Source of the DNA: Heligmosomoides polygyrus polygyrus
Lineage: Eukaryota > Nematoda > Chromadorea > Rhabditida > Heligmosomidae
Direction of reading: 5' to 3'
Assembly: GCA_947396885.1 (NCBI GenBank)
Contig: OX377202.1
Coordinates: 79,580,643 to 79,644,642, forward strand
Length of the DNA: 64,000 nt
Made by a program: the position numbers and the translations under genes. The notes under the pieces are model-generated. The model was not told the DNA's origin, did no database searches, and saw nothing but the letters and a program-made list of their open reading frames with translations. Of this stretch, positions 37,501 through 37,565 are shown piece by piece; the first letter of the stretch is position 1; each line of letters begins with the position of its first letter.

Positions 37501-37565
37501 ACTCCCACATGGTTCAGCGCCTCATCGTGGCGTGGGGGTGGCAATGGGTGTCGAACTGCGATGTA
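37501..37565 (+). ncRNA. Candidate HDV-like self-cleaving ribozyme at LINE 5' end
   Basis: Starting at base 1 of the LINE: P1 ACTCCCA (37501-37507) pairs with TGGGGGT (37533-37539), 7 bp with one G-U. CATGG follows P1 as in HDV. P2 CAG (37515-37517) pairs with CTG (37556-37558). P3 CGCC (37518-37521) pairs with GGCG (37529-37532) around a 7-nt loop TCATCGT (HDV: also 7 nt). GGCAA follows P1. A very short P4 (CA/TG, 37542-37550) is next, then C37552 followed by GAA, the position of the catalytic cytosine. HDV-like ribozymes are known at 5' ends of R2 and RTE LINEs, where cleavage frees the element's exact 5' end. P2 and P4 are short, so this is a prediction. Confidence 0.65.

Follow-up and report, generated by a model that had tools for sequence, protein, structure and literature searches.

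At the 5′ end of a complete LINE of Heligmosomoides polygyrus polygyrus lies a 149-nt segment (37502–37650, plus strand) that is very probably an HDV-like ribozyme. It would cut between A37501 and C37502, and a host transcript reading through the element would thereby likely yield the element's RNA, starting precisely at base one. The same reading takes in a second LINE family with a similar 5′ end (F2) and a sister lineage that carries a tRNA-like head instead (F3). The element carrying the segment, F1, is a complete LINE with endonuclease and reverse transcriptase in the window (the whole 64,000-nt stretch of DNA analysed), occupies 37502–40858 on the plus strand and belongs to a multi-copy family. 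A sequence-only reading had proposed an HDV-like ribozyme positioned to free the exact 5′ end of this LINE; that proposal is supported here, once the start is moved one base downstream and new positions are given to P2, P4 and J4/2.

Layout and start of the F1 element

Flanking F1 is a 17-bp repeat, ATTTAACGATTTACCGA (37484–37500 and 40859–40875), followed on either side by an A (37501 and 40876), so that the duplication can be 18 bp long and the element can start at 37502. The element and its flanks comprise:

37484–37501, plus strand: left target site duplication, 17 bp and the shared A, 18 bp in all; exact repeat of 40859–40876, with the start fixed by 39 other copies
37502–37781, plus strand: ribozyme-bearing 5′ module, replaced in F3, which matches F1 from 37782, by a tRNA-like head of 71 nt
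37881–40838, plus strand: open reading frame (ORF) of 985 aa, endonuclease and reverse transcriptase (ORF list, domain search)
40848–40858, plus strand: 3′ end of F1 with (AAG)n tail (sequence, copy comparison)
40859–40876, plus strand: right target site duplication, exact repeat of the left one

The organism's own 656-Mb genome was searched with 37401–38000, and the best 40 of 2715 candidates, the window included, were scored; because copies were chosen by score, the set favours full-length, near-identical copies, and truncated and old copies are unrepresented in it. Starting at the base equal to C37502 are all 39 other copies examined, with flanks that differ, which rules out an element start at 37501. 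A target duplication is present in 37 of the 40 copies, the window counted (L021, L029 and L037 are without one); for 26 of these 37 the top-scoring duplication stops right at the element start, for 9 it overlaps the start by 1–3 bases, and only two (L024 and L042) have an extra junction base, one each. The left edge had earlier been set by the 17-bp duplication ending at 37500: the duplication is real, but the start deduced from it, 37501, is one base off, and the cut predicted at 37500/37501 moves to the bond between 37501 and 37502, since the 39 other copies and the Rfam match all begin at 37502.

The F1 reading frame, which in 27 of the other 39 copies stays open for at least 980 codons between stops, contains Exo_endo_phos and RVT_1 domains. 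A single ORF with APE-like endonuclease and reverse transcriptase, a very short 3′ UTR and a simple-repeat tail make up an RTE-type layout, and it is by these layout features that F1 is assigned to this type. The three best protein matches of the ORF are all from strongylid nematodes (Haemonchus contortus, 70%; Ancylostoma ceylanicum, 64% and 63%), and H. polygyrus proteins match it at 89% and 84%, with 27% and 19% query coverage, respectively. An NCBIfam search gave matches only far below the cut-offs, and no relatives were found in viral contigs. Three LINE reverse transcriptase relatives occur in bacterial records (L071, L072 and L073; an Alicyclobacillus plasmid and two MAGs); contamination with eukaryotic DNA is their probable source, for L071 and L072 at any rate, and no HDV-like motif was found in L071 2001–3600, L072 1–450 or L073 1–900.

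Between the ribozyme and the ORF is a 22-bp unit, CCCCGAAGGCAAGAAAGGGGCA, present in nearly two copies (37659–37700), each of which could by eye form a hairpin. Closer to the ORF is a leader motif, GCGTCAGGCCCAGGTTGACAGGCCGGC (37831–37860), resembling by eye the F2 motif GCGACAGGCCCTAGTGACAGGCCGGC. Elsewhere in the window are:

11491–12522, plus strand: 343-aa ORF with HTH and DDE_3 domains, a Tc1/mariner-like transposase (domain search)
about 41182–41235 and 41751–41803: inverted repeat of ~50 bp, by eye, perhaps marking the termini of a foldback DNA element
44383–44459, minus strand: tRNA-Thr (GGT) gene (ARAGORN; Rfam tRNA at 44384–44458)
50757–51587, minus strand: ORF whose CCHC zinc knuckle match scores 20.5 bits against a Pfam cut-off of 20.8 (domain search), likely a retroelement gag

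Architecture of the predicted ribozyme

The predicted ribozyme is made up of the following parts:

37502–37650, plus strand: predicted HDV-like self-cleaving ribozyme, 149 nt (descriptor, pairing search, Rfam); predicted cut between A37501 and C37502
37502–37508, plus strand: P1 5′ strand CTCCCAC, 7 bp with one G-U (pairing search, Rfam alignment)
37509–37510, plus strand: J1/2, AT
37511–37517, plus strand: P2 5′ strand GGTTCAG (pairing search)
37518, plus strand: J2/3, C
37519–37531, plus strand: P3 hairpin GCC/GGC (37519–37521/37529–37531) with L3 TCATCGT (37522–37528) (Rfam, descriptor, pairing)
37532–37538, plus strand: P1 3′ strand GTGGGGG (pairing search)
37539–37544, plus strand: T and GGCAA, the P1.1 and J1/4 segment (Rfam, descriptor)
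37545–37636, plus strand: P4 domain, ~92 nt, candidate folds only (folding)
37637–37643, plus strand: J4/2 GCGAAGT with the predicted catalytic C37638 (pairing search)
37644–37650, plus strand: P2 3′ strand CTGAATC, 7 bp with one G-U (pairing search)

Directly after P3 comes the 3′ strand of P1, as expected of HDV-like ribozymes; P3 has about 3 bp, L3 has 7 nt with the expected U and G, and C37638-GAA follows the C-N-A rule for J4/2. By eye, P1.1 could form between C37523 and one G of GGCAA, with no covariation for it in F1. One model of P4 combines TGGG/CCTA, a 9-bp helix of TGTCGAACT (37549–37557) with AGTTCGACA (37612–37620) and a UUCG hairpin (37622–37631). P1, P3, the 7-nt L3 and GGCAA, all recognized in the sequence-only reading, agree with the Rfam alignment and with the descriptor match at 37502. 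The remainder of that fold is revised: its 3-bp P2 and minimal P4 are most likely wrong, P2 being the 7-bp helix 37511–37517/37644–37650 preceded on its 3′ side by GCGAAGT, and P4 the ~92-nt domain; C37552, proposed as the catalytic base, is less likely than C37638 in GCGAA and lies inside the possible 9-bp P4 helix; and with the downstream P2 the ribozyme extends over 149 nt instead of 65.

The best Rfam match of the 5′ end, HDV-F-prausnitzii (RF02682), starts at 37502 and scores 23.9 bits (E-value of 0.022 over 400 nt scanned and 0.009 over 166 nt), below the gathering cut-off of 44. The family search suggested at the outset thus returns an HDV-like family at the top but under threshold, and in a scan of the whole window at gathering only the tRNA is called, not the ribozyme. 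The alignment extends only to 37568, and because bases beyond this point are outside it, its 3′ part is placed elsewhere; its P4 and 3′ part conflict with the 7-bp P2 model.

The motifs of our descriptors are consensus features, picked with the sequence in view, so that all chance figures obtained with them are partly after the fact. With this proviso, a core of P1, P3, L3 (YYNNCGT) and GGNAA has a single match, at 37502, when both strands of the window are scanned. Simulated sequence totalling 1.28 Mb contains no core with CGT and GGNAA; when GGNAA is dropped there are 5, one of them with both pyrimidines. A looser descriptor gave 724 cores in 640 Mb of random 5′-UTR-like sequence, 15 with GGNAA and 3 with a 6-bp P2 and C-N-A in addition; the corresponding counts in 516 Mb of window-like random sequence were 620, 9 and 2. 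When the downstream sequence was shuffled (n = 5000), a 7-bp P2 arose in 551 shuffles, together with C-N-A in 140 and preceded by CGAA in 8.

Folding energies do not single out the P4 domain: 154 of its 1000 shuffles are as stable, and alternative folds of the domain compete with one another (−30.5 versus −27.7 to −28.8 kcal/mol); P4 stability is not usable as support for the ribozyme. For the 149 nt as a whole, the pseudoknot-free minimum is −49.5, against −41.5 for P1, P3 and P4 without P2.

Among the 39 other copies there are 7 differences in the 149-nt ribozyme and 28 in the 247 nt that follow (binomial p = 0.035), weakly suggesting constraint on the ribozyme. Five of the 7 are in P4, one is in the 3′ strand of P1 (L029) and one in GGCAA (L035): G37535A in L029 gives a C-A mismatch that breaks one P1 pair, and L035 alters a G of GGCAA. 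Loss of P1 pairing in other copies had been set beforehand as a ground for refutation; pairing is unchanged in 38 of 39 and mismatched in one (L029), a weak test because the copies are near-identical. The 39 copies, too alike to be of use for covariation, contain no two-sided (compensatory) changes.

F2 and F3: a second HDV-like 5′ end and a tRNA-like head

F2 was found in the same genome with a Necator protein (P0025); 47 of 51902 candidates were scored, and 12 of these 47 were examined upstream. A sharp start, GGTGGCG, is seen in 11 of these 12 copies (L048–L057 and L059), and L058, without it, is apparently truncated. Opening at this start is P1 (GGTGGCG/TGCCACT), and the same order of parts can be traced through P2 (TGTCCGT/ACGGACA, 7 bp in 11/11, one with a G-U change), a P3 of only 2 bp, L3 (TCCACGT), GGAAA, a clear P4 hairpin and J4/2. 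The last of these reads C-T-A-A or C-C-A-A in 8 of the 11 copies; CTGAAC in L048–L050 is off the C-N-A rule. A target duplication is present at the start in 11/11, one of them with an extra base.

All 192 pair cells of F2 (8 distinct rows) hold standard pairs, against 30–48% with partners slid. The 6 extra pair types are all one-sided, and no covariation is detected within F2, shuffled columns pairing as well (500/500). Between F1 and F2, with strands matched by role and not by alignment, both sides differ yet pair in 7/7 P1 pairs and 4/7 P2 pairs. At E ≤ 10, three of the four Rfam matches of the L052 5′ end, including the two best, are HDV-like: HDV_ribozyme (14.9 bits, E-value of 2.6), drz-agam-1 (12.1 bits, E-value of 2.8) and HDV-F-prausnitzii (10.4 bits, E-value of 6.6), the fourth being a snoRNA (E-value of 5.8) ahead of the third HDV-like match. 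All lie below gathering (at most 14.9 versus 50), and at E ≤ 0.5 a coarser Rfam search of five F2 loci came up empty. F2 appears to be a separate family with the same HDV-like architecture, built from different helices, at its exact 5′ end, which supports the interpretation of F1.

F3 was found with an Ancylostoma protein (P0002; 47 scored of 51338 candidates, 12 upstream regions taken). It matches F1 from about 37782, with a head standing in place of the module 37502–37781, and three full copies (~3.14 kb) are 89.3–89.6% identical to F1 from base 281 on. The same 71-nt head is found in 11 of the 12 regions, with one base different in L081; L085 is truncated. In L075, the A box of the head begins at base 10 and the B box at base 54, which is tRNA spacing; both were judged by consensus sequences. 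The window's tRNA-Thr is by eye unrelated to it. Target duplications accompany 10 of 11 F3 copies (not L082), and 1–2 extra nt precede the head at 5 of these 10 junctions, compared with 3/48 for F1 and F2 pooled (Fisher p = 0.0024). Of 1016 F3 candidates 40 were scored, many of them near-identical. Two copies of the F3 set with equal scores lie 3.56 kb apart on the same strand (G000 C1:7197951–7200881 and 7201509–7204439), possibly a local duplication.

RNA polymerase III (pol III) stops at T runs, and the loss of such runs in F3 therefore fits pol III transcription. TTTT is absent from all three full F3 copies, and the 7 TTT runs of F1 in the shared part are kept in none of them; in L097, TTT is kept in 0/7 cases versus 106/172 for other T-rich triplets (p = 0.0016; the triplets overlap). 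The F1 ORF is itself low in T runs (0 TTTT versus 2.6 expected, p = 0.09), both TTTT of the window copy being in the 5′ module that F3 lacks; the ORFs of two F2 copies contain 30 and 27 TTT and 4 and 2 TTTT.

Competing explanations and the proposed routes to full-length RNA

For the F1 5′ end, three other explanations were weighed. The compact fold of 65 nt, with a 3-bp P2 (CAG/CTG), hardly any P4 and catalysis by C37552, shares the core with the longer model, and CAG/CTG can pair and GAA does follow C37552; it is nevertheless quite improbable, given the downstream 7-bp P2 with GCGAA before it (8/5000 shuffles), the 7-bp P2 and hairpin P4 of F2, the placing of C37552 in a possible P4 helix and a usual P2 length of about 7 bp (PMC4908430, available portion). 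That the structure is instead a conserved leader, binding an element protein or serving translation start with a ribozyme-like fold that does not cleave, draws on the continuation of the 5′ module beyond the ribozyme, with its nearly twofold 22-bp repeat, and on the motif near the ORF common by eye to F1 and F2. We consider this improbable, as the fold opens at the exact first base in both F1 and F2, as cleavage requires; a leader has no obvious use for L3, GGNAA and J4/2, which belong to the active site, and F3 lacks the module yet has many near-identical copies. Chance likeness to an HDV-like ribozyme, to which the sub-threshold Rfam scores would speak, is scarcely conceivable against the counts in simulated sequence and the recurrence of the architecture at the exact 5′ end of F2.

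The head of F3 likely acts as a promoter, to judge from its boxes and the T-run pattern. It could instead be a by-product of a template switch onto a tRNA-like RNA, carried along and never a promoter. Pointing this way are the failure of ARAGORN to call a tRNA gene at any of 5 loci and of Rfam to match the head (L074 and L081 at E ≤ 0.1, L098 at E ≤ 10), and a T-stem that is degenerate by eye; T loss from F1 to F3 is moreover general (54 T to C, 23 C to T), TTG is also poorly kept (6/20, with AAA at 35/62 and CCC at 36/45), and a synonymous-codon shuffle of F3 alone is not significant for T runs (TTT p = 0.09–0.21). The by-product explanation is rather unlikely in view of the A and B boxes at tRNA spacing, the loss of all 7 TTT runs of F1, the absence of TTTT from the three full copies and the extra nucleotides at half of the F3 junctions with a duplication.

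On the ribozyme reading of F1, an element inserted in a transcribed region would be read through from a host promoter, and its RNA would fold and cut itself between 37501 and 37502, with C37638 as the predicted catalytic cytosine; on the outcome side, the examined F1 copies start exactly at the base after the predicted cut. In F3, pol III would start at the head or 1–2 nt before it, RNase P processing being an alternative. The two heads may be alternative routes to full-length RNA, one by cutting from any host transcript and the other by an internal promoter. More tentatively, and as a possibility for which we would claim slightly less than an even balance, F1 and F3 may represent one LINE lineage with interchangeable heads, either an HDV-like ribozyme riding host transcripts or a tRNA-derived pol III promoter on a 3-kb coding element whose T runs were purged for read-through, the head swap producing an autonomous LINE transcribed by pol III.

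According to the available portion of PMC3774820, HDV-like ribozymes cleave at the 5′ junction in Drosophila R2 and in the R4, L1 and RTE clades, in line with the earlier remark that such ribozymes are established for R2 and RTE-type LINEs; the predicted F1 ribozyme therefore belongs to a known class. F1 resembles the ribozymes of R2, R4, L1Tc and RTE in fold, in 5′ position and in a predicted cut at the first base, but is a separate element family, and its sister with a tRNA-like head is not described in that portion, where transcription of LINEs without a recognizable promoter is called poorly understood. HDV-like ribozymes of the nematodes Caenorhabditis japonica and Pristionchus pacificus, credited among others to Webb et al. 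2009 (PMC8256844, available portion), are of the same class, F1 being likened to them by class and not by sequence. With RF02682, F1 aligns from 37502 in P1, P3, L3 and GGCAA, whereas P4 and the 3′ part differ from the 7-bp P2 model. RTE1_Sar is a retrotransposon of strongylids, H. polygyrus included, and of the common shrew (PMC6542046, available portion); F1 and F3 are likewise strongylid elements, compared with it by description only, and the main text of that paper, as available, nowhere uses the word ribozyme.

A literature search, outside which most subscription papers lie, found by title nothing on ribozymes of strongylid elements, a weak negative; for LINEs with a tRNA-like or pol III head it gave, judged by titles and opening lines of abstracts, papers on SINEs, retroposons and genome surveys and others that by title were unrelated. 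tRNA-headed SINEs carry a tRNA-like 5′ head with A and B boxes, and F3 has a similar head, but on a ~3.1-kb element with a long endonuclease and reverse transcriptase frame. The swap of a ribozyme head for a tRNA-like head between sister LINEs looks new.

Taken alone, the predicted F1 ribozyme adds an unsurprising member to a known class. The F1 and F3 sisters, one with a predicted ribozyme and the other with a tRNA-like head, constitute within one genome a natural experiment on how LINE 5′ ends arise, and the contrast in precision between their junctions is the one that two different ways of making RNA 5′ ends should leave. Should F3 prove to be a pol III transcript, it would show that protein-coding LINEs are able to do without pol II, and the loss of T runs would be the visible footprint of that escape.
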